A stretch of 64,000 nucleotides of DNA from contig OX359192.1 in assembly GCA_947172415.1 (NCBI GenBank), positions 6,202,501-6,266,500 on the forward strand, in the 5' to 3' direction. Origin of the DNA: Chondrosia reniformis. Taxonomy: Eukaryota > Porifera > Demospongiae > Chondrillida > Chondrillidae. The position numbers were made by a program, and so were the translations under genes. How positions within the stretch are numbered: position 1 is the stretch's first letter; each line of letters begins with the position of its first letter. Positions 4,798-64,000 of this stretch are shown here, in pieces. Below the pieces are notes generated by a model. It worked only from the letters and a program-made list of their open reading frames with translations, was not told where the DNA came from and made no database searches.

Positions 4798-7700
4798 TGA
4801 ATAAAATTTTCTGCAGAATAATGAGTGGTCATACCAAGGCGAAATTCAATTGGTTGACGTTGTCGCCATGGTTTTAATTTTTCAAAATTGCAAATAGCCA
4901 ATGGCAGTTTAATAATACAGCAAATCTACTTTTCGAGTCAACGAGTGCTCACAAATTGAGACAAGATCATTTGCATGCGTCCTTCAAAAAGAACCCTGGC
5001 GTCCTTCATTAATAGAGATCGAGAAAATTGGTACCAGAAAATTACTAACTAGGCCCAGCTAGCTATGGCCCTATATCTCATGCATATGTGTGTGTAATAT
5101 ATTATACAGCCATATTTAGGGCAGCTGAAACTACCATTTGGACATATTATGTAGATAGTAGGTAGTTGACAGTGAACAGCTGTAATAGATAATTATGCAC
5201 TTATATGTAAGTCATTCAACAACAATTGACAATTGTCAGGTGACTATAATTATTTAGGTGAAGCTACTGCTTGACTAGGTACACATGCATGAAGTTAACT
5301 TCATTGAGTGACAGCCATGCACATGAACAGTACTTTGTCCTATTAGAAACATTAATTTCCAGGAACTTCCCCTTGTTGTCATGGAAACCATAATATAGAT
5401 AAGAGCTCATACAAAGGTTTCATGTAAATGTCTAATTATAGATGCACATGCACCTAACACACACTCTTAACAAATATGTAGAGGATAGTACATGAAGGGA
5501 GTTTATTTATTTGTACACTATTCAGTCTGTATCATTTATACACTGTTTGGGGTGTTTGTTAATCCTGTATGGGAAAACAATAAAATGTATCTGTATAATA
5601 AGTTAGACACGGTTTTCTAAAAATAATGAAACAAGAAAGTGATATTCTACTATAGCTTTTTCAGTCTATTCTATTTACTTTAGCCTCATACCATAAAGGT
5701 TACCATAAAGGTTAAAGTCAACAAAATGATTTATTCTTGACAATGATTTCACTTTACTAATACCAGAGGGCAGTCAAAGTACAGTAGGATAGAGTTGTTG
5801 CCATGGTTATGTACATGAGGTACTATTGCCAAATGTATCCAGCATACAGTAACCAAGGCAACATGTATACCAAAGCCTCACTTGTTAATATTATTGACAA
5901 TTACATACACACAACAAATGATAACTACAAAATAAAGGTGTACAATGATTAGTGCAGTAAGTTAAGGTTGCTATAGGCTTTCATCTTCCCATGCAGTATA
6001 GAGCATTGTAATTCTTTAGTTTAAGGGGGGATTACAAATGTCAAGTTTATAACAAGATGGCATTGTAACTCCCAAAGAAGTTGTTATTCAATTGTGTAGT
6101 GCATACTCAGACCCAAAACATGTTATTGCATCAACCACTGTCATGTGCTGTTACAGTGAAACAGTTAAACATAGAAGTCTTAATGATAATTTAAAAGTCT
6201 ACAAAATTCTCTACCTATAGTAGTCACAGATAGGTCCTGTTAAAAGGACATGCACATAAAGTACACACACTACATCACCTTTACATCAGCAAATTAATGT
6301 TTGCTTCTTCATGTACATCAATTAATAATGACTTGGGGGAGAAACTGTCTGATTTACATAGGGATCAGCTGTCTAGGTGAAGATACCACTTGATTTACAT
6401 GTGTGAAGTTTGTTTTACAATTGAGAGCCATATAAACTATTGATTACTATATCTCCATTTGAATGGTTGCCAGGGACCTGCACCTGGTTGTTATGGAGAC
6501 TTTTCTATAATGGTATATAGGCTATACAGAAGCAAACAAGATGTACACTGTAAGCACATATAGACACGGTGAAATGACACCTCGATCAGATGACCAGCAC
6601 TGTATCCCAAATGAGTGTAGCCATAACTACTAGGAGCTGGAATGGACCCTAAATCAGGTATACCTGATTGAATTTAATCTAGGTCATAGAATAGTAAAAA
6701 CAAATAGATTATCTAAGTAGCTACAGAACCAAGTAAATATTTAACAGTTTTACAATTTACGTACTAACTAATGTTAAAGCCAATAAATCCATTCAAATGC
6801 TAAATCTGTTAGTCCCATTGAACAAAAATTGTCCAGATCCTTTACAGTTGTCACTGCTGATTACATGCATATTCTTCCCTTGATCCAATACCTTCCTTAA
6901 CTCTCTTTACCACTCGAGTGGGTTTTAAGCCAATAGCTTTAGTGGTTCCTTACCACTTAGTCCTTCTTCTTTCTTAATTGGACATGTTGCTAGGTAACTG
7001 ACATTTGACAATTCTTCTGTGTGAAAATAAATTAAAAGTATAGACTGCACGAAAAGCCATATACTTGTGTAATCAAATGTTACTTCATATAAATTATAAA
7101 TTATACTTGATGTACAAATTACATTTTGAACAGTCTTACAAGTATTCTTATATAAGGTAAAAATGCTGATTAATATTATGTTAATCATAACAAAAGAAAA
7201 ACATCTATTATAGACTTTATTTAAAGCGGCTATATAGTTTGTATGATTTCCTAAACAAAATGACCTACCAATCAGTTTTAACGCATGTTCGCCAATAGGC
7301 TAGGCAAAATCTTCAGTAGCAACGGCCATTTTGGATTCACAAATTGATTGAGCAATAGGAATACCGGTGGTGAAAAATAGGGGTGATACACAACTCGCTA
7401 GTCTGCGTTTGCTCATATACAGAAGATGCAAAATTGTGGCACTTAGTTAAAACATCTGTATCCTTGATTTTCAATGTCCTGTGTTATGCATAAAACATGC
7501 CGCTTGATTCATGCGCTCGCAAGAGCTTGTACATAAAAGATCACTGCTGAAATAATCAAATACTGATAGCTTATTTATTAATTAAGCATTTCTATTCATG
7601 GGGTCACTGTACATGTTATGATTTGCTGCCATGAATGATTTCTAATCGAAAATCAATAACAATAACAATTTGCTGAATAGGCCGGGTTATGTTCTGCATG

Positions 7701-8664: not shown

Positions 8665-9000
8665 GAACTCGAACATTTTTTGACCTTTTTTAAATTTAAA
8701 ACCATGTACAAGTATATGCTTATTTCAGAATTGTCAAATGAAACAAAAATATTGATGATCATTTTACAGTGGTTATATACTTGTCGATAATGATGAATTA
8801 TTCATAAATGAGATTGCTATAATAAAATATAACCCAGTTCATCACATATGTAAGCATTCAGGATACTCTTGTAAATTATTGCATAACTAGTATTATAAAA
8901 ATCCAAAGGCTGGCCCATGTCTCTTAGATTGCTGCAATGTTGCAGGACATAGACATGTATCATAAGTGTCATTCGTATTGTAAGTAATAAACAAGAAAAA

Positions 9001-9190
9001 GGAAAAAGGGAAAAAGGACGAAAGTAAAAAGAAAAAGAAAAAGAGGACCAAAGTAAAACGAAAAAAAAGGGAAAAAGGACGAAAGTAAAACGAAAAAGAA
9101 AAAAAGGGAAAAAGGACGAAAGTAAAACGAAAAAGAAAAAAAGGGAAAAAGGACGAAAGTAAAACGAAAAAGAAAAAAAGGGAAAAAGAA
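9001..9190. repeat. 37-bp polypurine minisatellite
   Basis: Four near-identical units with gggaaaaaggac at 9069, 9106, 9143 and 9180 (exact 37-bp spacing), preceded by one more degenerate copy. One strand is almost all purine, so triplex (H-DNA) formation is possible. Apparent Phe-rich proteins read from the other strand are artefacts of this composition. Confidence 0.9.
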
Positions 9191-32100: not shown

Positions 32101-34738
32101 AGTGAACTGGCATTCCAAATGTTGCAATACTAGGGTAGGTATGTTGATGCTTAAGTGACACATAGCAGACTTCCTAACGTGTCACTAACTGTCATAAAAC
32201 TTTAAATATTAATACTATGCACTTTCAAATTGCCAAATTTTAGTTGCTAACAAATACAATGGAAGTTGGTCAGCTATCTGAGGTTCTTTTGATGATTTTT
32301 TGTTATCTTGGATGACTGGGAGGCAATCACTGGTTGCCAATTAATAGGACTTTGGTCCCCTAGCCAAGATCAGACTTTGGTCTCTTTGCTGGTCGGTGTA
32401 ATATTTTCCAGTGATTATCTAATTTCTAAACACATTGAACTAATGTTCCCCTTTAAACGTTTGTCTGTGTTGTATTCTGTCACCCACCCCCTGGTGATAT
32501 TCTGTCCCCCACCCCCTGGTGATATTCTGTCCCCCACCCCCTGGTGATATTCTGTCCCCCACCCCCTGGTGATATTCTGTCACCCACCCCCTGGTGATAT
32601 TCTGTCCCCCACCCCCTGGTGATATTCTGTCCCCCACCCCCTGGTGATATTCTGTCCCCCACCCCCTGGTGATATTTTTGTCCCCCACCCCCTGGTGATA
32701 TTCTGTCCCCCACCCCCTGGTGATATTCTGTCCCCCACCCCCTGGTGATATTTTTGTCGCCTTACCATGAAGCCTAATGGCCACATCACGCCAGCTATCA
32801 CCTTCCAAAGGACCACTAGTGCAGTTGGATGTAAAGTCTACCTCTGCCTTGAGTACCTTTATCCACATATGATGCTGCAGGGGAGTGGCCCCATTCTCAG
32901 ATTCTAAAGAAGAAAGACAACTATCCAAGTCAACAAGCTTAGTAACTTTTGGTGCAACAGGCCTGCCTACCTTTCAAAGGTCCCACTGCAAGCAGAACAT
33001 GCCAGGAGTGGTTAAGATTAAATCCGTGCATTGAATCATTAACAATGACACATCTTGTGAAACTGCAAAAAATGTACACACTTTAATGGTGTGCTATACA
33101 CTGTAGTGGCGTGCTATACACTGTAGTGGCGTGCTATACACTGTAGTGGCATGCTATACACTGTAGTGACGTGCTATACACTGTAGTGGCATGCTATACA
33201 CTGTAGTGACGTGCTATACACTGTAGTGGCGTGCTATACACTGTAGTGGCGTGCTATACACTGTAGTGGCGTGCTATACACTGTAGTGGCGTGCTATACA
33301 CTGTAGTGGCGTGCTATACATATATGACACATCAGTAGCAGTACCTGCAGTGTCCTATTCCATCTGCCACACTGCCATGCTCCAAGTGGATACCTCCCTA
33401 GAAGGGACAAACCAGCTAGTTAGTTGCCTAGGAAACCGTGGCATGTTCTATAGTAAATATGCTTAAATACAATTCAGGAAATGCTCGTAACAGTCTACCT
33501 CAACAAAGAAAACAATTATTCATCTTGTTGTGGAAGAACATTCTCTAAGTAGGAAGTATCTATTAACTAGTTCTCCTACAGTGCTAGGAAAAATGTCCTT
33601 TGTACAACTACTTTAAAGGTCTTACTTGGTCGGAGTCTATTGTGTTGGTTGGGTCAGCATTGTTCCATCCATCCAGCACAGTCACATTCCTCTGGTCCCC
33701 TTCGTGGGGAAATAAACAAATCATAGCATCCGAATTTGCCTGTTAAAAATATAAGCACCCACAAGCATTAATTCATATGGTGCATACAACAATATTACAT
33801 GCGACCAAAGTGTAATGAATATACTTATTCACAATCTGCAGTGGCAGATTTAGGGGATGCTCTGCACACCTCCTCCGAATTTTAGTTTGTATATTACGAT
33901 AAATACTATTCAAACCCCATCATTCACTTTCTCTGTTGCACTCCTATATACGTAACTTAGCACCCCTTTATAATCTTCTATATCTGCTCCCAGTCTGGTA
34001 GTTGAATTTATACAAAACAAAAAAGTGTTAGACATGCTACACATAAGAATGTACCATGGCAACCTGCTACGTTGGTAATACACATCTGCATTTATCTTTT
34101 TGAACATCAGTAACAAGTGACCACTTTAGTGATGTACGATCAGAAGATGGAGTTATGTACATTGAAGGGAAACTCGATATACAAGTACCATTTTGTTGTC
34201 TGCTGATAGTCCGATGGCAGCCCAGCTTCCTCTACTTGATGGTTGTCCAAGCGATAGCTTTGTCGTTAAGCGGAAGTGTACCATCTCTCCATTATCAGTT
34301 GGCTCCCAGGTCAACCTGAAAACACACCCGCCATCTTGACAACCGTTTGGAAAGGCCACCTCTCTAAGCTCATCACATGCGGACGTATCCTACAGTGGTA
34401 CAGTACGCTAACCACCAGAATACTGAGGCAAAGAGCTCGTGGCTCTTTAACAAGAGAAATTAATGCTACACTTAGAAATGTCCATTATTCGGGAAGTGAA
34501 GGGAAGTAGCCATGCGATACATTATGCCATACCTCTTCTCCGACATTGTGTTCGCTGTGCTTCTTCTGTATCAAACGGCGAACACTGGTTTCCTAAGGAA
34601 TGGACGAATTGGGTTTCGGGAGGTTGGCACGCCAAATCACGGTCAATTTACCTGAGCGACTGTGTCATCTTTCTTTCCGATAGATAAGTGTAATACAAGT
34701 AGAAGATATAAAAGTTTAGAGAGAACAGAAATGGCCAT
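29159..34738 (-). CDS. FRRS1-like DOMON / cytochrome b561 ferric reductase
   Basis: ATG at 34738 opens a signal-peptide exon (34652-34738: MAISVLSKLLYLLLVLHLS). The DOMON domain is in about 34189-34389 (CQDGGCVFRLTWEPTDNG; RGSWAAIGLSAD), 33626-33740, 33345-33400, 32970-33063 and 32766-32905. The membrane-bound b561 part follows in about 31977-32071 (VPTGMLIARH), 31237-31327 (LTLFVAFGLALAH), 31098-31208 (LASYSRHYLYLIGH), 30422-30484 (FNWFHRCLGIMVFLIGG), and a further membrane exon around 30183-30358. Acidic tail exon 29335-29440 and a final hydrophobic exon 29159-29261 end the protein. Histidines at family positions (ARH, HMM, RHY, NWFHR) should bind two haems. The likely role is transmembrane electron transfer to ferric iron, as in FRRS1. 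No reelin domain was recognised. An exon bearing an odd CSPFDT segment may lie around 34520-34580. The TM exon boundary near 31200 is uncertain. Confidence 0.75.
32461..32757. repeat. 25-bp G-rich minisatellite at a splice donor
   Basis: Eleven copies of a 25-bp unit with ctggtgatatt at 32491, 32516, 32541, 32566, 32591, 32616, 32641, 32666, 32692, 32717 and 32742; one step is 26 bp. On the transcribed (minus) strand each unit carries GGGG and GGGGG runs. The array starts about 9 nt inside the intron of the FRRS1-like gene, after the donor CATG|gtaag at 32766. The unit is open in all three minus-strand frames, which makes spurious Gly-rich reading frames. Confidence 0.95.
33091..33330. repeat. 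20-bp minisatellite in FRRS1-like intron
   Basis: Twelve units of gtgctatacactgtagtggc at exact 20-bp spacing (33091 to 33311). Variants are limited to a few positions (g/a at unit start and at position 18), indicating recent expansion. Confidence 0.95.
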
Positions 34739-44100: not shown

Positions 44101-46054
44101 AAGTAATTTCAGAATGTTTCAGTTTACAGATCAGCTTCAGCTGACATGACAAACGGTTAAATTATACATAGCAACTTTCAATTTAATTTAATTATTCTAC
44201 TTTTAGATCATTCAGTGGCTATTACATCATATATTTCAGTATGACCTAACATTACATAATCTGTATTATCTGACCAGTCACACTTTTTATATCTGAAGTA
44301 TAACTTAACTGTTGCTAAGGATTAAGGTTTAAATGTCCTGGAGGTACTATGAGAAGCTCATTAATTAGTGAAGTAATAGTCTGCCATACATCAACTTCTC
44401 CATGCTGGGGAATAAGAGATGTTGTAAGGTAGTTGTAAAACACTTGCATGTCTTCTCTCTCCAAACCACTCCTAATAGGTACAGAATTATAGGCAACCAT
44501 ATTTGTTGGTAATCATGGAAAATAAGAGCCCAGTAGAGGACAACATGATAAATAAGAGCCCAGTAGAGGCAACACGATAAATAAGAGCCCAGTAAAGGGC
44601 AGCCGTCAAATAAGAGCCCAGTAAAGGACGACTTGATAAATAAGAGCCTAGTATAGAAATAATTATAATAAGAGCCGAAGATTAAATGCATTAATAAGCA
44701 CCTAGTGGAGGTTCAATGTCACATAATCAAACTCCTAACTAACCAAACCAACTGGTTATGGTGCATTATTACTACCCGCTTCAAGTACCTATAGCAAGAG
44801 AATCAACCATGTACATGACATTATGCAGTTATTCTTGATATATGTAGAGAATTTCTACTCTTAGGTCTTCATGATCTCAACAAATACTCCCTATCAATTC
44901 ATGGCATACATAATACAGGGTTGCCTTAGAAGTGTCACTATAGGTACTTGTTTTGAGATTCCAATTTGTTCACAAACTGATGTGCTTTCATAAATACAGC
45001 CGTATTCAGAGGTAGAAACTGTATTCCTTCATACACAGTAAAAATGCTAAGGTCTTTAAAATTTATACTTGGGACATACTGCAGAAGAGAAGAGAAGATA
45101 ATCTCTAAAGTTTCCTGGATTCCTAATCATCCACTGTGTCTCTCTTACTGTAGAATAAAAATCTGATAACTGTTGCACGAGTGAGGACTGTCCCACAAGA
45201 TCAATAATGTCCTCAAAAAAGCCATGGAACAAGAGGAATGTTCTGTAAGCAAGCTTTAGTATGCCCTGGAGTGCCATTTTCTGAATGAGAGAGAGAGAGA
45301 GAGAACTTGATCCATCTTTTGAGGAATGAGTGTCCATTCCTATACATAACTTTACAATTGTGCAACATATGTACATACATTGACAGTATCATCAAAATAT
45401 TCTGTCACTTGCTCTCCTTCAATGATAACGGATGCATGGGGAACAAGCACAGTCTGAAAGTAGAGAAATGGAGACTGAGATAAAATGGAATATGCAGGAG
45501 CTACAGGTTTATCAAAAAATAAGGTTATAAACACAATGACTTAATGTATCATGATAACATATAGGTATTCGTACATATACAAATACACATAGATGTATGT
45601 AGCTGCTATTCGTTTACCATTGAAATCCAAAGATCTGGTTCTGCTTGAAAGAAAACCTGTTTCTTCTTCTTGGATACGATGGCTTCGCACGACTCGTCGG
45701 GATTAAATGACCTATGATAGCAGTCGAGAACTGTTAACTCATATACAGCATACGTACACAGATATAAACAGCTTACCCAGAAAAGGCAATAATAGCCGTT
45801 GTGAGTCCTACTGTCTTAACTTTAGTGTCCATGTTTTCATCCTCCGGATAATAATAAAGTATTTTCTTATGTTCCTAAAGTAATGGTCCGTGGAAACATC
45901 ACAGCTTATAACTTCTCTTCCTCAGTATCACTGTAGCACAAACCTCGCCCTCTTTGTTTCCAAGTTTTGGGTTGAAAATGAAAAAGTTTTTAAGCTTTGG
46001 GCGGAGATCCGTTCCATCGCTGTCTACATTGCTAACAGACTTCTTTTCGGCCAT
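41101..46054 (-). CDS. CCZ1: CCZ1, subunit of the MON1-CCZ1 RAB7 exchange factor
   Basis: Spliced gene starting with ATG at 46054. Exon 1 (45944-46054) carries LKNFFIFNPKLGNKEGE; exon 2 (45777-45874) carries HKKILYYYPEDEN and VKTVGLTTAIIAFSG. Next are 45619-45711 (QVFFQAEPDLWISM), about 45370-45455, 45130-45290, 44945-45060 (EGIQFLPLNTAVFMKAHQF), about 44315-44500 (SGLEREDMQVFYNYLTTSLI), 43620-43690, 43180-43375, 41760-41870, 41525-41650 (YIYFNSMNLAVKSPML), about 41215-41340 and 41101-41165 (EEVRKLCEKEF, TAA at 41101-41103). These match CCZ1 in order from first to last exon, including the N-terminal longin-type region. CCZ1 with MON1 activates RAB7 on late endosomes and autophagosomes. Some central exon boundaries are approximate. 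Confidence 0.9.
42100..42135. repeat. Short dispersed repeat, two copies in CCZ1 introns
   Basis: ccctttaaaccacaaaccca here recurs with one difference at about 42776-42797 (ccctttgaaccacaaaccca). In both cases agct follows. It may be a fragment of the tRNA-like SINE family. Confidence 0.4.
44510..44690. repeat. About 30-bp tandem repeat in CCZ1 intron
   Basis: Five degenerate copies with core aaataagagcccagtagagg, spaced about 28-32 bp. It lies directly 5' (in transcription) of the SGLEREDM exon. Confidence 0.85.
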
Positions 46055-50695: not shown

Positions 50696-52656
50696 TTAGA
50701 ATATTTGACCGGAACTTGCATACAGTATAACAGCATGGTCACGTAGGCTGTATTCCCCTTTCTGTGGACAAGGACTCTTCCTGGTGCAGAGCTTCTCTCC
50801 ATGGAAAGCCTCAGCCAAAAGGTATGCTATCAATGTCACAACTGCAAGACCCACAATGGTCCACAAGTTGGCACTAACTGGAATTGAACTGGAAATAAAG
50901 TAATTCAGGGCACCTCCAAAGGCCACAAAAGCCCAGAATAGTCCAAATGCTTCTGTAGCAAGATTATCTTTGCTTCCAACAATACCAAAGTAAACTGAAC
51001 ACATAGGGAAAGTCACAAAACCAATAAAATTGAGACATACACATGTCCAGCATATACTGTATAGTTAAGCGATTAATACTTTTGTAATATAAATGGAGCA
51101 TACAGATTTACACATGTACACATGAGGCAAATAATCCCATTTTAGTTAGGGCAGCCAGGGATTTCTACAATGTGTATAACATAATAAAACTATAATATAC
51201 AGTTTAAACTCAAACAGTATAGTACTCACTTAATGGTATAACATTCCAAAAGGTGCTCACCAGTCCTGAAACAATCGCAGCTACAAACACTACAATAACA
51301 TTAGGCTGCCTCTCCCAAAATATCAGAAACAGATAGGCAGACAAGTGAACACAAGTTATCAATATAGCAGCTGCTGTTCTAGTTGTATAGGGAGTGAATC
51401 GACCAACAGAAATACTCACTGTAAAACCAGCTACAGACCACACAGTGATGGCAAGTCCAACAAAACCAATTCCAATGCATTCAGTAATGAAGTACTATAT
51501 ACGTACATGTAGAACATGTGCATGTATATAGTCTAGTTGCATTTCTGATCAGACATGTGCATACCATACCCTAAACATGAAATTTATGCATGAATGTGTT
51601 CCATTCATGCATAAATAAATGTTTCCCCTCTTACAAAGTATAGGCATATGTATCTCTATTCATGAATACCAATTAATGGTGATTCTAAGAATTGATCAGT
51701 AATCAGAGTCATGTGCATGTCTGTACCTTTGAAAATAGTCCATAAAAGAAGCCATTATCAAATCCTGCCAATATACCTCCAAGAAGTGGAAAGACATATT
51801 GCCATTTTAGAAACAACTGTAACATTGAAATAAGTCTATTTTTCAAATCCTTTAACACTTTTTTCTTGGATTTCAAACTCAAATTTGCATCATTTGGTAG
51901 AAATATAGATAATACAACAGCAACTAAACCAAGTCCTGTTGCTGTACCAATTACCTGGTAATATGTAGCTGAAGTTATTGCTCCCAGAGTGGTTGGCTGT
52001 ACACACTCAGTCTCATTTACTGTGAAGCTAGTTGAGTTAAGGAAGACTGCATCTGTGAGGAAAAAGGCTGATGAAACGGCATTACCACTGGCCATACCTA
52101 GCCTTATACTAAATACAAATATGGACTGGAAGTAGGACACATATTTGTGAGTGTTTTTCTTAACATCCCCAGGCTTGTTCTGACCAATCACACGAGCACT
52201 CTGATTAAAGTAAGTAGGACTGCCTGTATATACGAAACCGAACCCTAATCCTGACAGAATTGAACCTGGCACAAATGTATACCAAGAAGGATAGAAACAG
52301 CAAAGCGTAAAAGACATATAAGCAATACTGCCCGCTAGGATTACCAACTTCAATCCAATAAGGTCGATGACAGCAGGGCACAAGAGATTACCAATAACCC
52401 AGAAGAACCATTGAAGACCAAGTGACACAAATCCAAGGAATTCATGTAGGGAAGTTAGAGTTCCTGCTAAAGAATAATAGCCAAAGTTACAAAACATCGC
52501 AATACTACCAACCAAAGCCACGTTACAGTAGGCCCTCCTGACGGATACAGGACGGCTGTAGCTGACCTTACAAGAGTTAGTTTCTACTTCCTCGAGTTTA
52601 GTCTCACGAGGTGTGTTCGACCCGTCGCTCAACGAAGCCATGGGTTTCTCTGACAT
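50696..52656 (-). CDS. UNC93-like (UNC93A-type) membrane protein, copy 2
   Basis: Three exons: 51727-52656, 51230-51494 and about 50696-50994. ATG at 52656 (MSEKPMASLSDGSN) starts a soluble N-terminus, then polytopic membrane segments of the UNC93 family: VGSIAMFCNFGYYSLAGTL, YFITECIGIGFVGLAITVW at the start of exon 2, and LWTIVGLAVVTLIAYLLAEA near the end. Exon 2 starts at the same protein position as in the other copy (HFTAECLGSG versus YFITECIGIG), and both exons 2 are 265 nt, so the two genes are paralogues with conserved introns. It converges tail-to-tail on DDX5/17 (222 bp apart) and its 5' end lies under 180 bp from satellite DNA. Confidence 0.8.
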
Positions 52657-52829
52657 GTGTTAGCTGAATAAAAGTTAATGATTTACTGCTTCTTATTTGA
52701 TAAGGTTACGAACAGGAAGCCATTTTAAAACCTACTTCTGAAAAACAAGTTTAAACCAAGTAGTTTAAAAACTCGTGGGGCTCCCGCCCACGAATGAACT
52801 GGATAAAATTAACGATGGAAAAGCTTCGT
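52657..52829. promoter_or_regulatory. Promoter side of UNC93-like copy 2 / satellite boundary
   Basis: It holds the presumed promoter of the minus-strand UNC93-like gene and, at 52762-52829, a copy of the dispersed element also seen at 14292. The element includes the hairpin tcgtggg..cccacga (52773-52793). Satellite monomers start right after it. Confidence 0.45.
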
Positions 52830-53923
52830 TAATGTACATTGAGGGCTGTAACTTAATCAAATGGAGAGATATGAAGCTAACACTTTGTGTCAGCATTCAC
52901 AGACATTTATACAGCATGTCCAATGAGTTTTTGAAATTGTGATGGAACTTAAAATTTGCCCTATCTCTCACCATACATTAACTTTGTATACCAGAATTTA
53001 ATGCACATTGAGGGCTGTAACTCAATCAAATGGAGAGATATGAAGCTAACACTTTGTGTCAGCATTCACAGACATCTATAGAGCATGTCCAATGAGTTTT
53101 TGAAATTTAGATGGAACTTAAAATTTGCCCTATCTCTCACCATACATTAACTTTGTATACCAGAATTTAATGCACATTGAGGGCTGTAACTCAATCAAAT
53201 GGAGAGATATGAAGCTAATACTTTGTGTCAGCATTCACAGACATCTATAGAGCATGTCCAATGAGTTTTTGAAATTTAGATGGAACTTAAAATTTGCCCT
53301 ATCTCTCACCATACATTAACTTTGTATACCAGAATTTGATGCACATTGAGGGCTGTAACTCAATAAAATGGAGAGGTATGAAGGTAACACTTTGTGTCAG
53401 CATTCACAGACACCTATAGAGTATGTCCAATGAGTTTTTGAAATTTTGATGGAACTTAAAATTTGCCCTATCTCTCACCATACATTAACTTTGTATACCA
53501 GAATTTAATGCACATTGAGGGCTGTAACTCAATCAAATGGAGAGATATGAAGCTAACACTTTGTGTCAGCATTCACAGACATCTATACAGCATGTCCAAT
53601 GAGTTTTTGAAATTTAGATGGAACTTAAAATTTGCCCTATCTCTCACCATACATTAACTTTGTATACCAGAATTTAATGCACATTGAGGGCTGTAACTCA
53701 ATCAAATGGAGAGATATGAAGCTAACACTTTGTGTCAGCATTCACAGACATCTATACAGCATGTCCAATGAGTTTTTGAAATTTAGATGGAACTTAAAAT
53801 TTGCCCTATCTCTCACCATACATTAACTTTGTATACCAGAATTTAATGTACATTGAGGGCTGTCACTCTATCAAATGGAGAGATATGAAGCTAAATGTTT
53901 GTGTCAGCATTCACAGACATCTA
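52830..53923. repeat. Satellite array, block 1 (169-bp monomers)
   Basis: About six tandem monomers; ccatacattaac recurs at 52971, 53140, 53309, 53478, 53647 and 53816, i.e. 169-bp spacing. Each monomer contains ctttgtgtcagcattcacag. Reading frames of 64 codons within it are by-products of the repeat. Confidence 0.97.
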
Positions 53924-54956
53924 ATAAAACCGGCCTACTTGAAATATCGATCATAGACATTAATATCGTATAGGCGATAAATATCGAACCTCTCACTATA
54001 TCTAGTTTTCTGTATCATGAAAAGTCGCTCTCCTCCCTCCACCAAGACACATACAGGCTTTTATCCATTTGCCACAGTTTTGAGATGTATTGGAAATACT
54101 TCGTATGTGTGTAAAATTGCTTGGAGCGATTCACTGGTCTGGAATTAAAGTGGAATAAATTGACGATTTCTCGAAAATAATTGGGATGAGAAAAGTCGTT
54201 CTCCTCGGCCCATCAAGACACTTACAGGACTTTTTTCGCTTTTCCCAGTTTTCAGGTGAACCACAAATACTGCCTATGTCTTTGAACTTGCTTGAAAGAA
54301 TTCACTGATCTGGAAATAACGAGAAATATATTAAAAAAGTCCTAACCACAACCGTTTTCTTTGGACAAAACTTCATATAAATAGAAGCGAAAAACCTTAT
54401 ATAGTAGGCCTACCTGGACACATCTCTATGGTGGTTGCGGTTCCCATAGAGGTTGGTAGCGCTTAGACTCTGAAGCTGTCTCCTAATCGGTTGGTGCCAT
54501 AGAGACGTGCTCACCAATAATCCGGATTTCGGGGGGGTTCCACGTAATGTGGGATTGGCATCTGATATCTTAGGATTCATATGAGTCGGCCATATCGAGA
54601 AGAACTGGTTCTTCTCACGCAAGTGACACCCAAAGCTCAACTCGGCAGAGCGTTACCACCGATCCCGGCCTATGAGCGTCGTGGATGGTAGCGTTCGGTA
54701 TGGTCCAACTGTTTTTCTTTGGAGTTTCGTTGGCTGTCGATTGACGAAATTTCACTTCAACGAGATCCATATAAAATATATGGATAGATAGTACTTCAAT
54801 AACAATCAAGTACTACACAGTGCATATCCCTATGTATAAAAAATTGGAAAGTATTCTAGATTTTCAGATATAGTATGGAATTTTGTCTTTCTTATAATAT
54901 TAGACCTTCTAACGGTCGGCCATATATAGTATTACGCAATTTTCTCTAACAAAACA
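53924..54956. repeat. Satellite spacer unit, copy 1
   Basis: About 1,033 bp of non-monomer DNA starting at aataaaaccggcc and ending before gtacattatc. It contains an internal diverged duplication of about 171 bp (gaaaagtcg at 54019 and 54190), a perfect hairpin gagaagaactggttcttctc (54597-54616), and an 8-bp foldback atccatat..atatggat near 54765. Frames of 76 and 64 codons on the minus strand are kept in all copies but have no recognisable domain. Nearly identical copies occur at 59399 and 61694. Confidence 0.93.
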
Positions 54957-57900
54957 GTACATTATCTGTAGTTCTGTAACTCTATCAATTAATGGAGAGA
55001 TATGAAGCTAAATCTTTGTGTCAGCATTCACAGACATCTATAGAATATGTCCATTGGGTTTGTGAAATTTTGATGAAATTTAAAATTTGCCCTATCTCTC
55101 ACCATACATTAACTTTGTATACCAGAATTTAATGTACATTGAAGGCTGTCACTCTATCAAATGGAGAGATATGAAGCTAAATCTTTGTGTCAGCATTCAC
55201 AGACATCTATAGAATATGTCCAATGGCTTTGTGAAATTTTGATGAAATTTAAAATTTGCCCTATCTCTCACCATACATTAACTTTGTATACCAGAATTTA
55301 ATGTACATTGAAGGCTGTCACTCTATCAAATGGAGAGATATGAAGCTAACACTTTGTGTCAGCATTCACAGACATCTATAGAGCATGTCCAATGAGTTTT
55401 TGAAATTTAGATGGAACTTAAAATTTGCCCTATCTCTCACCATACATTAACTTTATACCAGAATTTAATGCACATTGAGGGCTGTAACTCAATCAAATGG
55501 AGAGATATGAAGCTAACACTTTGTGTCAGCATTCACAGACATCTATAGAGCATGTCCAATGAGTTTTTGAAATTTAGATGGAACTTAAAATTTGCCCTAT
55601 CTCTCACCATACATTAACTTTATACCAGAATTTAATGCACATTGAGGACTGTAACTCAATAAAATGGAGAGGTATGAAGGTAACACTTTGTGTCAGCATT
55701 CACAGACATCTATAGAGCATGTCTAAAGTGTTTTTGAAATTTAGATGGAACTTAAAATTTGCCCTATCTCTCACCATACATTAACTTTATACCAGAATTT
55801 AATGCACATTGAGGGCTGTAACTCAATCAAATGGAGAGATATGAAGCTAACACTTTGTGTCAGCATTCACAGACATCTATAGAGCATGTCCAATGAGTTT
55901 TTGAAATTTAGATGGAACTTAAAATTTGCCCTATCTCTCACCATACATTAACTTTATACCAGAATTTAATGCACATTGAGGACTGTAACTCAATAAAATG
56001 GAGAGGTATGAAGGTAACACTTTGTGTCAGCATTCACAGACATCTATAGAGCATGTCTAAAGTGTTTTTGAAATTTAGATGGAACTTAAAATTTGCCCTA
56101 TCTCTCACCATACATTAACTTTATACCAGAATTTAATGCACATTGAGGACTGTAACTCAATAAAATGGAGAGGTATGAAGGTAACACTTTGTGTCAGCAT
56201 TCACAGACATCTATAGAGCATGTCTAAAGTGTTTTTGAAATTTAGATGGAACTTAAAATTTGCCCTATCTCTCACCATACATTAACTTTATACCAGAATT
56301 TAATGCACATTGAGGACTGTAACTCAATAAAATGGAGAGGTATGAAGGTAACACTTTGTGTCAGCATTCACAGACATCTATAGAGCATGTCTAAAGTGTT
56401 TTTGAAATTTAGATGGAACTTAAAATTTGCCCTATCTCTCACCATACATTAACTTTATACCAGAATTTAATGCACATTGAAGGCTGTCACTCTATCAAAT
56501 GGAGAGATATGAAGGTAACACTTTGTGTCAGCATTCACAGACATCTATAGAGCATGTCCAATGAGTTTTTGAAATTTAGATGGAACTTAAAATTTGCCCT
56601 ATCTCTCACCATACATTAACTTTGTATACCAGAATTTAATGCACATTGAGGGCTGTAACTCAATCAAATGGAGAGATATGAAACTAACACTTTGTGTCAG
56701 CATTCACAGACATCTATAGAGCATGTCCAATGAGTTTTTGAAATTTACATGGAACTTAAAATTTGCCCTATCTCTCACCATACATTAACTTTATACCAGA
56801 ATTTAATGCACATTGAGGACTGTAACTCAATAAAATGGAGAGGTATGAAGGTAACACTTTGTGTCAGCATTCACAGACATCTATAGAGCATGTCTAAAGT
56901 GTTTTTGAAATTTAGATGGAACTTAAAATTTGCCCTATCTCTCACCATACATTAACTTTATACCAGAATTTAATGCACATTGAGGGCTGTAACTCAATCA
57001 AATGGAGAGATATGAAGCTAACACTTTGTGTCAGCATTCACAGACATCTATAGAGCATGTCCAATGAGTTTTTGAAATTTAGATGGAACTTAAAATTTGC
57101 CCTATCTCTCACCATACATTAACTTTGTATACCAGAATTTAATGCACATTGAGGGCTGTAACTCAATCAAATGGAGAGATATGAAGCTAACACTTTGTGT
57201 CAGCATTCACAGACATCTATAGAGCATGTCCAATGAGTTTGTGAAATTTAGATGGAACTTAAAATTTGCCCTATCTCTCACCATACATTAACTTTATACC
57301 AGAATTTAATGCACATTGAGGACTGTAACTCAATAAAATGGAGAGGTATGAAGGTAACACTTTGTGTCAGCATTCACAGACATCTATAGAGCATGTCTAA
57401 AGTGTTTTTGAAATTTAGATGGAACTTAAAATTTGCCCTATCTCTCACCATACATTAACTTTATACCAGAATTTAATGCACATTGAGGACTGTAACTCAA
57501 TAAAATGGAGAGGTATGAAGGTAACACTTTGTGTCAGCATTCACAGACATCTATAGAGCATGTCTAAAGTGTTTTTGAAATTTAGATGGAACTTAAAATT
57601 TGCCCTATCTCTCACCATACATTAACTTTATACCAGAATTTAATGCACATTGAGGACTGTAACTCAATAAAATGGAGAGGTATGAAGGTAACACTTTGTG
57701 TCAGCATTCACAGACATCTATAGAGCATGTCTAAAGTGTTTTTGAAATTTAGATGGAACTTAAAATTTGCCCTATCTCTCACCATACATTAACTTTATAC
57801 CAGAATTTAATGCACATTGAAGGCTGTCACTCTATCAAATGGAGAGATATGAAGGTAACACTTTGTGTCAGCATTCACAGACATCTATAGAGCATGTCCA

Positions 57901-59398
57901 ATGAGTTTTTGAAATTTAGATGGAACTTAAAATTTGCCCTATCTCTCACCATACATTAACTTTGTATACCAGAATTTAATGCACATTGAGGGCTGTAACT
58001 CAATCAAATGGAGAGATATGAAGCTAACACTTTGTGTCAGCATTCACAGACATCTATAGAGCATGTCCAATGAGTTTTTGAAATTTAGATGGAACTTAAA
58101 ATTTGCCCTATCTCTCACCATACATTAACTTTATACCAGAATTTAATGCACATTGAGGACTGTAACTCAATCAAATGGAGAGGTATGAAGCTAACACTTT
58201 GTGTCAGCATTCACAGACATCTATAGAGCATGTCTAAAGTGTTTTTGAAATTTAGATGGAACTTAAAATTTGCCCTATCTCTCACCATACATTAACTTTA
58301 TACCAGAATTTAATGCACATTGAGGACTGTAACTCAATAAAATGGAGAGGTATGAAGGTAACACTTTGTGTCAGCATTCACAGACATCTATAGAGCATGT
58401 CTAAAGTGTTTTTGAAATTTAGATGGAACTTAAAATTTGCCCTATCTCTCACCATACATTAACTTTGTATACCAGAATTTAATGTACATTGAAGGCTGTC
58501 ACTCTATCAAATGGAGAGATATGAAGCTAACACTTTGTGTCAGCATTCACAGACATCTATAGAGCATGTCCAATGAGTTTTTGAAATTTAGATGGAACTT
58601 AAAATTTGCCCTATCTCTCACCATACATTAACTTTATACCAGAATTTAATGCACATTGAGGACTGTAACTCAATAAAATGGAGAGGTATGAAGGTAACAC
58701 TTTGTGTCAGCATTCACAGACATCTATAGAGCATGTCTAAAGTGTTTTTGAAATTTAGATGGAACTTAAAATTTGCCCTATCTCTCACCATACATTAACT
58801 TTATACTAGAATTTAATGCACATTGAGGACTGTAACTCAATAAAATGGAGAGGTATGAAGGTAACACTTTGTGTCAGCATTCACAGACATCTATAGAGCA
58901 TGTCCAATGAGTTTTTGAAATTTAGATGGAACTTAAAATTTGCCCTATCTCTCACCATACATTAACTTTATACCAGAATTTAATGCACATTGAGGACTGT
59001 AACTCAATAAAATGGAGAGGTATGAAGGTAACACTTTGTGTCAGCATTCACAGACATCTATAGAGCATGTCCAATGAGTTTTTGAAATTTAGATGGAACT
59101 TAAAATTTGCCCTATCTCTCACCATACATTAACTTTGTATACCAGAATTTAATGTACATTGAAGGCTGTCACTCTATCAAATGGAGAGATATGAAGCTAA
59201 CACTTTGTGTCAGCATTCACAGACATCTATACAGCATGTCCAATGAGTTTTTGAAATTTAGATGGAACTTAAAATTTGCCCTATCTCTCACCATACATTA
59301 ACTTTGTATACCAGAATTTAATGTACATTGAGGGCTGTCACTCTATCAAATGGAGAGATATGAAGCTAAATGTTTGTGTCAGCATTCACAGACATCTA
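54957..59398. repeat. Satellite array, block 2 with ordered monomer subtypes
   Basis: About 26 monomers of 169 bp or, where actttgtatacc becomes actttatacc, 167 bp. Three subtypes are visible: A (gagggctgtaactcaatc), B (gaggactgtaactcaataaa with aaggtaacac and gtctaaagtg), and C (gaaggctgtcactctatc). The run B-B-B-C recurs at about 55970, 57310 and 58650. Confidence 0.95.
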
Positions 59399-60432
59399 AT
59401 AAAACCGGCCTACTTGAAATATCGATCATAGACATTAATATCGTATAGGCGATAAATATCGAACCTCTCACTATATCTAGTTTTCTGTATCATGAAAAGT
59501 CGCTCTCCTCCCTCCACCAAGACACATACAGGCTTTTATCCATTTGCCACAGTTTTGAGATGTATTGGAAATACTTCGTATGTGTGTAAAATTGCTTGGA
59601 ACGATTCACTGGTCTGGAATTAAAGTGGAATAAATTGACGATTTCTCGAAAATAATTGGGATGAGAAAAGTCGTTCTCCTCGGCCCATCAAGACACTTAC
59701 AGGACTTTTTTCGCTTTTCCCAGTTTTCAGGTGAACCACAAATACTGCCTATGTCTTTGAACTTGCTTGAAAGAATTCACTGATCTGGAAATAACGAGAA
59801 ATATATTAAAAAAGGTCCTAACCACAACCGTTTTCTTTGGACAAAACTTCATATAAATAGAAGCGAAAAACCTTATATAGTAGGCCTACCTGGACACATC
59901 TCTATGGTGGTTGCGGTTCCCATAGAGGTTGGTAGCGCTTAGACTCTGAAGCTGTCTCCTAATCGGTTGGTGCCATAGAGACGTGCTCACCAATAATCCG
60001 GATTTCGGGGGGGTTCCACGTAATGTGGGATTGGCATCTGATATCTTAGGATTCATATGAGTCGGCCATATCGAGAAGAACTGGTTCTTCTCACGCAAGT
60101 GACACCCAAAGCTCAACTCGGCAGAGCGTTACCACCGATCCCGGCCTATGAGCGTCGTGGATGGTAGCGTTCGGTATGGTCCAACTGTTTTTCTTTGGAG
60201 TTTCGTTGGCTGTCGATTGACGAAATTTCACTTCAACGAGATCCATATAAAATATATGGATAGATAGTACTTCAATAACAATCAAGTACTACACAGTGCA
60301 TATCCCTATGTATAAAAAATTGGAAAGTATTCTAGATTTTCAGATATAGTATGGAATTTTGTCTTTCTTATAATATTAGACCTTCTAACGGTCGGCCATA
60401 TATAGTATTACGCAATTTTCTCTAACAAAACA
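59399..60432. repeat. Satellite spacer unit, copy 2
   Basis: 1,034 bp, near-identical to copy 1. Visible differences are a single added g in the aaaaaaggtcc run and ggaacgattc for ggagcgattc. It starts the first 2,295-bp higher-order unit. Confidence 0.95.
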
Positions 60433-61693
60433 GTACATTATCTGTAGTTCTGTAACTCTATCAATTAATGGAGAGATATGAAGCTAAATCTTTGTGTCAG
60501 CATTCACAGACATCTATAGAGCATGTCCAATGAGTTTTTGAAATTTAGATGGAACTTAAAATTTGCCCTATCTCTCACCATACATTAACTTTATACCAGA
60601 ATTTAATGCACATTGAGGGCTGTAACTCAATCAAATGGAGAGATATGAAGCTAACACTTTGTGTCAGCATTCACAGACATCTATAGAGCATGTCCAATGA
60701 GTTTTTGAAATTTAGATGGAACTTAAAATTTGCCCTATCTCTCACCATACATTAACTTTGTATACCAGAATTTAATGCACATTGAGGGCTGTAACTCAAT
60801 CAAATGGAGAGATATGAAGCTAACACTTTGTGTCAGCATTCACAGACATCTATAGAGCATGTCCAATGAGTTTTTGAAATTTAGATGGAACTTAAAATTT
60901 GCCCTATCTCTCACCATACATTAACTTTGTATACCAGAATTTAATGCACATTGAGGGCTGTAACTCAATCAAATGGAGAGATATGAAGCTAACACTTTGT
61001 GTCAGCATTCACAGACATCTATAGAGCATGTCCAATGAGTTTTTGAAATTTAGATGGAACTTAAAATTTGCCCTATCTCTCACCATACATTAACTTTATA
61101 CCAGAATTTAATGCACATTGAGGACTGTAACTCAATAAAATGGAGAGGTATGAAGGTAACACTTTGTGTCAGCATTCACAGACATCTATAGAGCATGTCT
61201 AAAGTGTTTTTGAAATTTAGATGGAACTTAAAATTTGCCCTATCTCTCACCATACATTAACTTTATACCAGAATTTAATGCACATTGAGGACTGTAACTC
61301 AATAAAATGGAGAGGTATGAAGGTAACACTTTGTGTCAGCATTCACAGACATCTATAGAGCATGTCCAATGAGTTTTTGAAATTTAGATGGAACTTAAAA
61401 TTTGCCCTATCTCTCACCATACATTAACTTTGTATACCAGAATTTAATGTACATTGAAGGCTGTCACTCTATCAAATGGAGAGATATGAAGCTAACACTT
61501 TGTGTCAGCATTCACAGACATCTATACAGCATGTCCAATGAGTTTTTGAAATTTAGATGGAACTTAAAATTTGCCCTATCTCTCACCATACATTAACTTT
61601 GTATACCAGAATTTAATGTACATTGAGGGCTGTCACTCTATCAAATGGAGAGATATGAAGCTAAATGTTTGTGTCAGCATTCACAGACATCTA
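60433..61693. repeat. Satellite array, block 3
   Basis: 1,261 bp, about 7.5 monomers in the order partial C, A, A, A, B, B, C, C'. With the preceding spacer it makes a 2,295-bp higher-order repeat. Confidence 0.95.
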
Positions 61694-62727
61694 ATAAAAC
61701 CGGCCTACTTGAAATATCGATCATAGACATTAATATCGTATAGGCGATAAATATCGAACCTCTCACTATATCTAGTTTTCTGTATCATGAAAAGTCGCTC
61801 TCCTCCCTCCACCAAGACACATACAGGCTTTTATCCATTTGCCACAGTTTTGAGATGTATTGGAAATACTTCGTATGTGTGTAAAATTGCTTGGAACGAT
61901 TCACTGGTCTGGAATTAAAGTGGAATAAATTGACGATTTCTCGAAAATAATTGGGATGAGAAAAGTCGTTCTCCTCGGCCCATCAAGACACTTACAGGAC
62001 TTTTTTCGCTTTTCCCAGTTTTCAGGTGAACCACAAATACTGCCTATGTCTTTGAACTTGCTTGAAAGAATTCACTGATCTGGAAATAACGAGAAATATA
62101 TTAAAAAAGGTCCTAACCACAACCGTTTTCTTTGGACAAAACTTCATATAAATAGAAGCGAAAAACCTTATATAGTAGGCCTACCTGGACACATCTCTAT
62201 GGTGGTTGCGGTTCCCATAGAGGTTGGTAGCGCTTAGACTCTGAAGCTGTCTCCTAATCGGTTGGTGCCATAGAGACGTGCTCACCAATAATCCGGATTT
62301 CGGGGGGGTTCCACGTAATGTGGGATTGGCATCTGATATCTTAGGATTCATATGAGTCGGCCATATCGAGAAGAACTGGTTCTTCTCACGCAAGTGACAC
62401 CCAAAGCTCAACTCGGCAGAGCGTTACCACCGATCCCGGCCTATGAGCGTCGTGGATGGTAGCGTTCGGTATGGTCCAACTGTTTTTCTTTGGAGTTTCG
62501 TTGGCTGTCGATTGACGAAATTTCACTTCAACGAGATCCATATAAAATATATGGATAGATAGTACTTCAATAACAATCAAGTACTACACAGTGCATATCC
62601 CTATGTATAAAAAATTGGAAAGTATTCTAGATTTTCAGATATAGTATGGAATTTTGTCTTTCTTATAATATTAGACCTTCTAACGGTCGGCCATATATAG
62701 TATTACGCAATTTTCTCTAACAAAACA
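61694..62727. repeat. Satellite spacer unit, copy 3
   Basis: 1,034 bp, exactly 2,295 bp after copy 2, and identical to it wherever I compared by eye. Confidence 0.95.
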
Positions 62728-63988
62728 GTACATTATCTGTAGTTCTGTAACTCTATCAATTAATGGAGAGATATGAAGCTAAATCTTTGTGTCAGCATTC
62801 ACAGACATCTATAGAGCATGTCCAATGAGTTTTTGAAATTTAGATGGAACTTAAAATTTGCCCTATCTCTCACCATACATTAACTTTATACCAGAATTTA
62901 ATGCACATTGAGGGCTGTAACTCAATCAAATGGAGAGATATGAAGCTAACACTTTGTGTCAGCATTCACAGACATCTATAGAGCATGTCCAATGAGTTTT
63001 TGAAATTTAGATGGAACTTAAAATTTGCCCTATCTCTCACCATACATTAACTTTGTATACCAGAATTTAATGCACATTGAGGGCTGTAACTCAATCAAAT
63101 GGAGAGATATGAAGCTAACACTTTGTGTCAGCATTCACAGACATCTATAGAGCATGTCCAATGAGTTTTTGAAATTTAGATGGAACTTAAAATTTGCCCT
63201 ATCTCTCACCATACATTAACTTTGTATACCAGAATTTAATGCACATTGAGGGCTGTAACTCAATCAAATGGAGAGATATGAAGCTAACACTTTGTGTCAG
63301 CATTCACAGACATCTATAGAGCATGTCCAATGAGTTTTTGAAATTTAGATGGAACTTAAAATTTGCCCTATCTCTCACCATACATTAACTTTATACCAGA
63401 ATTTAATGCACATTGAGGACTGTAACTCAATAAAATGGAGAGGTATGAAGGTAACACTTTGTGTCAGCATTCACAGACATCTATAGAGCATGTCTAAAGT
63501 GTTTTTGAAATTTAGATGGAACTTAAAATTTGCCCTATCTCTCACCATACATTAACTTTATACCAGAATTTAATGCACATTGAGGACTGTAACTCAATAA
63601 AATGGAGAGGTATGAAGGTAACACTTTGTGTCAGCATTCACAGACATCTATAGAGCATGTCCAATGAGTTTTTGAAATTTAGATGGAACTTAAAATTTGC
63701 CCTATCTCTCACCATACATTAACTTTGTATACCAGAATTTAATGTACATTGAAGGCTGTCACTCTATCAAATGGAGAGATATGAAGCTAACACTTTGTGT
63801 CAGCATTCACAGACATCTATACAGCATGTCCAATGAGTTTTTGAAATTTAGATGGAACTTAAAATTTGCCCTATCTCTCACCATACATTAACTTTGTATA
63901 CCAGAATTTAATGTACATTGAGGGCTGTCACTCTATCAAATGGAGAGATATGAAGCTAAATGTTTGTGTCAGCATTCACAGACATCTA
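62728..63988. repeat. Satellite array, block 4
   Basis: 1,261 bp with the same monomer order as block 3, apparently identical to it. Confidence 0.95.
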
Positions 63989-64000
63989 ATAAAACCGGCC
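63989..64000. repeat. Satellite spacer unit, copy 4 (cut by window end)
   Basis: The first 12 bp (ataaaaccggcc) of the next spacer, exactly 2,295 bp after copy 3, so the higher-order array continues beyond the window. Confidence 0.9.

Follow-up and report, generated by a model that had tools for sequence, protein, structure and literature searches.

Comparable repeat systems

Repeats of 5S and 45S rDNA consist of an RNA gene and a spacer whose sub-repeats differ in copy number and build up satellite arrays, and a report on tomato (PMC2679016) gives a precedent for satellites derived from rDNA spacers. The repeat of the sponge Chondrosia reniformis described here has the same build, but its core is not rRNA according to Rfam, its units are dispersed, and its promoter is of the snRNA type. 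Alpha-satellite-like higher-order repeats resemble it in monomers of about 170 bp and a local, homogenised multi-monomer unit; the sponge array differs in the absence of a CENP-B box, in its many loci per chromosome, and in the 1-kb gene-like spacer contained in the unit. Dispersed satellites of the oyster type, which a published account links to Helitrons (PMC10048060), are likewise short arrays scattered genome-wide, but the sponge repeat has no recognised mobile-element ends and carries an RNA-like core with a promoter. With the U1, U2, and U5 snRNA genes of the host genome, the core shares the motif ACCACAA (at -55/-56 in the host genes and at -59 in the core), a conserved RNA part, and the multicopy state. 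It differs from them in having no sequence match, in its hundreds of copies versus 6-8 matches for each host gene, and in being a repeat with a terminal T-run and 169-bp sub-repeats between the genes. Among the open-licence papers listed on sponge centromeres, satellites, and spliced leaders, on 7SK and its evolution, on satellites with snRNA genes, and on multicopy noncoding RNAs with PSE and TATA, no title or abstract opening describes a repeat of this kind.

The large unit of the sponge array is very probably an RNA-gene repeat and not a centromeric higher-order repeat, with a predicted gene of about 310 nt behind an snRNA-type promoter in more than 800 copies. Such a gene, present in hundreds of copies and matching no Rfam model, would be unusual for an animal, and sponges branch early.

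Organization of the satellite array

The window, i.e., the whole stretch of 64,000 nucleotides analysed, corresponds to C4:6202501-6266500 of a genome of 117,379,552 bases in 15 contigs. The genome note of C. reniformis (PMC12181767) gives 117.37 Mb, 14 chromosomes, and a mitochondrion, and has no word starting with 'centromer', 'telomer', or 'satellite'. The satellite extends over positions 52830-63988 of the window (Table 1), and Tandem Repeats Finder placed arrays of period 169/167 at the four monomer blocks, the first of them beginning at 52829.

Table 1. Features of the satellite array and of the predicted RNA gene copies in the window.
Feature	Position in window	Strand	Remarks
Monomer block 1: 6 full 169/167-bp monomers plus another truncated at monomer position 80	52830..53923	+	
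Spacer copy 1, 1,051 bp	53924..54974	+	
PSE-like element ACCACAACCGTTTTC, 59 bp before first core base	54345..54359	+	shared ACCACAA; low mismatch in 45 copies
TATA box TATAAATAG at -28	54376..54384	+	
Predicted ~310-nt RNA gene copy 1: conserved core and terminal T-run	54404..54716	+	conservation, G+C, fold
Monomer block 2	54974..59398	+	
Spacer copy 2, 99.8% to spacer copy 1	59399..60450	+	
Predicted RNA gene copy 2; PSE from 59821, TATA from 59852	59880..60192	+	
2,295-bp unit 1, identical to unit 2	59399..61693	+	
Monomer block 3	60450..61693	+	
2,295-bp unit 2; contains spacer copy 3 (61694-62745)	61694..63988	+	
Predicted RNA gene copy 3; PSE from 62116, TATA from 62147	62175..62487	+	
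Monomer block 4; next spacer starts at 63989 and exits the window	62745..63988	+	

A preliminary description of this DNA had reported monomers of 169 or 167 bp at 52830-64000, at least three subtypes in a recurring B-B-B-C order, and exact 2,295-bp units, and had read them as a centromere-like satellite. The monomers and their order were borne out. Forty-three full monomers are present in the window (167 bp long in 23 cases and 169 bp in 20), and grouping at 98.5% identity gave 12 subtypes in the order ABBCBB / DEFGFGGGHFGBFGGGHFGIEGJKL / BBFGKL / BBFGKL, in which the GGG-H run, equivalent to the B-B-B-C of the preliminary description, is found twice. The exact units were confirmed, with limits. 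Two complete adjacent units have 0 differences in 2,295 positions, each composed of a spacer of 1,051/1,052 bp and about 7.4 monomers, and exact identity is limited to these two; a third unit starts at 63989 and leaves the window. From the first spacer of the window to the next the distance is 5,475 bp, and distances of 1,625 and 9,699 bp occur further along chromosome 4, so that 2,295 bp is only a local unit.

At the loci read, the first monomer downstream of the spacer begins at monomer position 17-19. The monomer that precedes the spacer breaks off at position 77-80 on chromosomes 2, 4, 5, 9, 10, and 14 and at three of five chromosome-8 loci; this break is absent on chromosome 3 and in the chromosome-8 loci L021 and L022. 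Copies on chromosome 6 are shorter.

Conserved core of the spacer

The spacer is present in each unit, as had been reported, but its conserved, gene-like nature had been missed. A core of about 307 bp, at spacer positions 481-787 (window 54404-54710 in the first copy), was recognized in an alignment of 46 copies. Twenty-six of them come from 30 spacer matches in the window and in loci fetched by monomer, a set blind to the core; four of the matches, three of them partial and the fourth from chromosome 5, were left out. The 20 added copies all have the exact core 31-mer (16 from chromosome 1, three from chromosome 2, and one from chromosome 11). Mismatch against the majority was computed on 45 copies, with L043 dropped as the first half of its core is unrelated sequence; the aligned copies, neighbours especially, are related and are not independent samples.

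Mismatch in the core is 0.42% (0.93% with L043 kept) and rises to 8.6% just downstream, at spacer 811-866. In the blind set of 26 copies the core has 0.50%, compared to 6.6% at 811-866 and 3.9% at 96-410; the corresponding value for 96-410 in all 45 copies, 11.5%, is inflated by misalignment. Upstream of the core, islands of low mismatch at 421-436 (PSE, 2.9%) and 452-461 (TATA, 4.7%) flank a stretch with 14.7% at 437-451, and 6.7% was obtained at 462-480; downstream of the core, the value at 794-810 is 3.3% (all in 45 copies). The conserved unit thus has defined ends, as mismatch drops at spacer 481 and climbs past the T-run at 788-793. With up to three differences allowed, the core 56-mer is found in 45 of 46 copies and bases 811-866 in 22 of 46, with 38 versus 0 exact copies.

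The core is kept also where its upstream sequence is not. In L032 and L047, blastn matches nothing upstream of position 421, and in L035, L036, L039, L042, L044, and L046 the upstream match is limited to about 140 bp at 73-80%, while the cores of these eight copies have 0-6 mismatches in 307 positions. The G+C content of the core is 52% versus 31-37% around it, and an internal TTTT is absent. Copy L036 is core-like up to the T-run and diverges directly after it, as expected if the gene ends there. It breaks four predicted pairs (609:639, 665:782, 728:770, and 746:755) and is probably a decayed copy. L033 lost five bases of the core. L043 (C1:9238350-9239650) retains just the latter half of the core, starting at spacer position 599, fused to unrelated DNA.

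Selection on an RNA product would be the cause of this region-limited conservation, although the same pattern could arise by gene conversion confined to the core. A TA insertion common to 12 of 46 copies lies on different backgrounds, which suggests exchange between copies. A coding function of the core was rejected, since its longest ORF has 80 aa, on the minus strand, and these 12 copies have the 2-bp insertion there.

Putative promoter elements

If the core is a gene, the conserved islands upstream of it should be promoter elements, and this was tested on the host snRNA genes. Genes for U6, U2, U1, U5, and MRP were searched in the same genome, and their upstream DNA was read. The motif ACCACAA was found at -55/-56 in all 21 matches of U1 (7), U2 (6), and U5 (8), several of which are recent copies of each other, and downstream of it there are usually two free letters, then a purine and T's. 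The element ACCACAACCGTTTTC lies 59 bases before spacer position 481, and a start at 478-481 fits. One host U1 gene has ACCACAACCGTTTCC, which shares 14 of 15 letters with the element of the core. As a background, both strands of the first 52 kb of the window contain ACCACAA-NN-R-TTT once (about one per 104 kb, strands summed) and AACCACAA eight times. The core has thus the PSE in common with host snRNA genes, as a gene of the snRNA type (SNAPc/PSE-driven) would.

The TATA box TATAAATAG at -28 has counterparts at -28 in host U6 and at -30 in MRP, and some U1 and U2 genes also have a TATA. Of the features of type-3 pol III genes, TATA and T-run are present in the core repeat; ACCACAA is absent from the better of two U6 matches and from the one MRP gene read, and any role of this element with pol III is hypothetical. 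The T-run favours pol III as the putative polymerase, while the PSE is of the U1/U2/U5 kind.

Nature of the predicted RNA

In the predicted fold of the core, 214 of 306 positions are paired. Compared with shuffles, the fold energy gave z of -2.0 for the core and -2.3 when its reverse strand was folded, with -3.0 for the domain at the 3' end and -1.1 for a 411-nt piece; fold energy of a single strand was rejected as proof of an RNA, being weak when the reverse strand also reaches -2.3. Pair 502:527 is U-A in 41, U-G in three, and C-G in one of the 45 copies, and a two-sided change was seen at one pair only, in one copy. An insertion found in five copies from chromosomes 2, 8, and 10, which is 29 nt long in four of them and shorter in C10b, is predicted to fold into a stem of seven pairs with a UUCG loop.

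No match was obtained in Rfam 15, either for the array at gathering cut-offs, for the spacer at E<=5, or for the core at E<=10. ARAGORN (bacterial code) found no tRNA in the spacer, and a likeness to a tRNA D-arm that had been noticed by eye was discarded. Strings of the telomerase template and of the hammerhead are absent from the core in a simple string test. Bacterial, viral, and phage matches were not found with one exact 31-mer, one exact 28-mer, and blastn of the core.

The RNA favoured on these grounds would be an unnamed or strongly diverged member of the snRNA class, with the function, most likely, of an abundant nuclear RNA. A known kind too diverged for Rfam, such as a sponge spliced-leader RNA or 7SK, is compatible with the RNA-gene reading and is possible, if doubtful. 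Spliced-leader genes are multicopy, and a spliced leader would account for the copy number; usual spliced-leader RNAs are far shorter than the candidate RNA of about 310 nt. A convincing donor or Sm site was not seen in it, and a possible hairpin of the Sm type past the T-run is broken at one pair in up to 15 of 45 copies. Trans-splicing has been reported in the glass sponge Aphrocallistes vastus (PMC10282587). The size and promoter of the core suit 7SK, and the Rfam 7SK model found nothing in the genome at E<=10 (19 of 1,797 candidates scored). The 7SK hallmarks were not recovered, since the core itself has no Rfam match and the GAUC pair in the 5' hairpin is missing. GAUC is the HEXIM interface of 7SK (PMC8406779), and the single GATC of the core, at core position 258, is not the GAUC stem contacting HEXIM.

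That the RNA represents a new family, abundant, structured, and about 310 nt long, with an snRNA-type promoter, more than 800 near-identical genes, and a spacer turned into a dispersed satellite, is a real possibility, if short of an even chance; such an RNA would have a role distinct from those of splicing RNAs and 7SK, or the satellite would be spreading with its own RNA gene. If transcribed, the core would represent a major unnamed RNA of the sponge, or its missing 7SK, or a spliced leader.

Genome-wide distribution

Few copies confined to this locus, which the preliminary description had set against a centromere, are not what the assembly contains. With up to three mismatches allowed, a monomer segment of 41 bases gave 6,201 genome matches (control 0), equal to at least 1.05 Mb, and the 56-mer of the spacer core has 866 (control 0), balanced between the strands (429 plus and 437 minus). 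The core 31-mer has 809 matches (control 0), and a 73-mer over the promoter 377, versus the 866 of the core 56-mer. The 31-mer is interrupted by the insertion of some copies, which may explain part of the gap between 809 and 866.

Among the matches listed, 71 places on chromosome 1 match at least one of three core/promoter patterns exactly; joined by a 50-kb rule, they form 21 irregularly spaced clusters, on average about one per 0.5 Mb. The longest interval on chromosome 1 that lacks exact core copies measures 2.69 Mb, at 2.99-5.68 Mb. Copies are present on at least 12 of 14 chromosomes (1-11 and 14), often at several loci each, among the matches listed. The window array is about 14.6 kb long, with its right end at C4:6269961. 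Other arrays measure tens of kb, as about 40 kb at C5:6.67-6.71 Mb and about 36 kb between the edges seen at C1:7.05-7.09 Mb, the latter with one exact core copy among the matches listed, and some loci carry a single core copy.

Nucleosome-sized monomers, a homogenised nested unit, and several thousand copies would suit a monocentric centromeric or pericentromeric satellite with the RNA-like core as a passenger. This reading is very improbable, as one main cluster per chromosome would be expected and 21 are found on chromosome 1, with several loci often on other chromosomes. The arrays of about 14.6-40 kb do not support it either, no CENP-B box was found in the array, and greater conservation of a passenger core than of the monomers is not expected. 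What stands of the preliminary reading is a real, homogenised, and nested satellite of nucleosome-sized monomers; what does not is the centromere, with copies at many loci per chromosome. Such a centromere-looking satellite is better read as RNA-gene spacer DNA, and monomer length and nesting alone are insufficient to call centromeres.

C. reniformis is not known to be holocentric, and a repeat-based holocentromere, in which the scattered short arrays jointly form a diffuse centromere like Tyba of Rhynchospora, is very improbable. The dispersed arrays of about 170-bp monomers and the mean density of their clusters on chromosome 1 would suit it, and diffuse repeat-based centromeres are described from plants (PMC10954556, PMC11538461). 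The irregular spacing, the 2.69-Mb gap, and the loci with a single core copy argue against it, and it leaves the conservation of promoter and core unexplained.

The dispersal of more than 800 copies in both orientations also recalls a non-autonomous mobile element, Helitron-like or of another kind, that contains tandem repeats, the core being its conserved working part; elements of this kind are reported to seed satellites in other animals (PMC10048060). This origin is unlikely, as 19 array edges compared by eye, among which two edge pairs are copies of each other, revealed no common end or target-site duplication, and a Helitron would not be expected to carry an snRNA promoter.

Proposed formation of the repeat

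Returning to the RNA-gene repeat, a structured RNA of about 310 nt would be encoded by the three copies in the window behind the snRNA-type promoter, where the PSE should bind SNAPc, the TATA lies 28 bp before the putative start, and the gene would end at the T-run. The 169-bp monomers would be sub-repeats of the intergenic spacer of this gene, like the sub-repeats of rDNA spacers. Unequal exchange would make them grow and shrink in number, which would produce the local period of 2,295 bp and, at some sites, long gene-poor satellite arrays. The units would have spread over most chromosomes, with the RNA part kept near-identical by selection together with exchange between copies.

Duplicated array and other repeats

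A near-copy of the window array is located at C4:6281857-6297575. The array with its left flank (window 51830-64000) recurs about 27 kb further along chromosome 4, at C4:6280857-6297575 (L010-L012). The flanks of the duplicated arrays are 99.9% (left) and 100% (right) identical, each over 1,000 bp, and L012 has extra pieces of the left flank with 93.9% and 97.6%.

A second tandem repeat, with a period of about 105 bp, was noted at L009:4575-5672, L012:2189-3286, the left part of L027, and L013 near 7592-7687. It neighbours 169-bp arrays of chromosomes 4 and 10, and a single unit of it is present at an array edge on chromosome 1. Within the spacer, positions 96-238 and 267-409 (window 54019-54161 and 54190-54332) are a diverged pair of about 171-bp repeats, 75.7% alike. 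Other minisatellites of the window are at 32473-32752, 33078-33320, 8993-9188, 1448-1574, and 44520-44653, with periods of 25, 20, 37, 27, and 29 bp, respectively.
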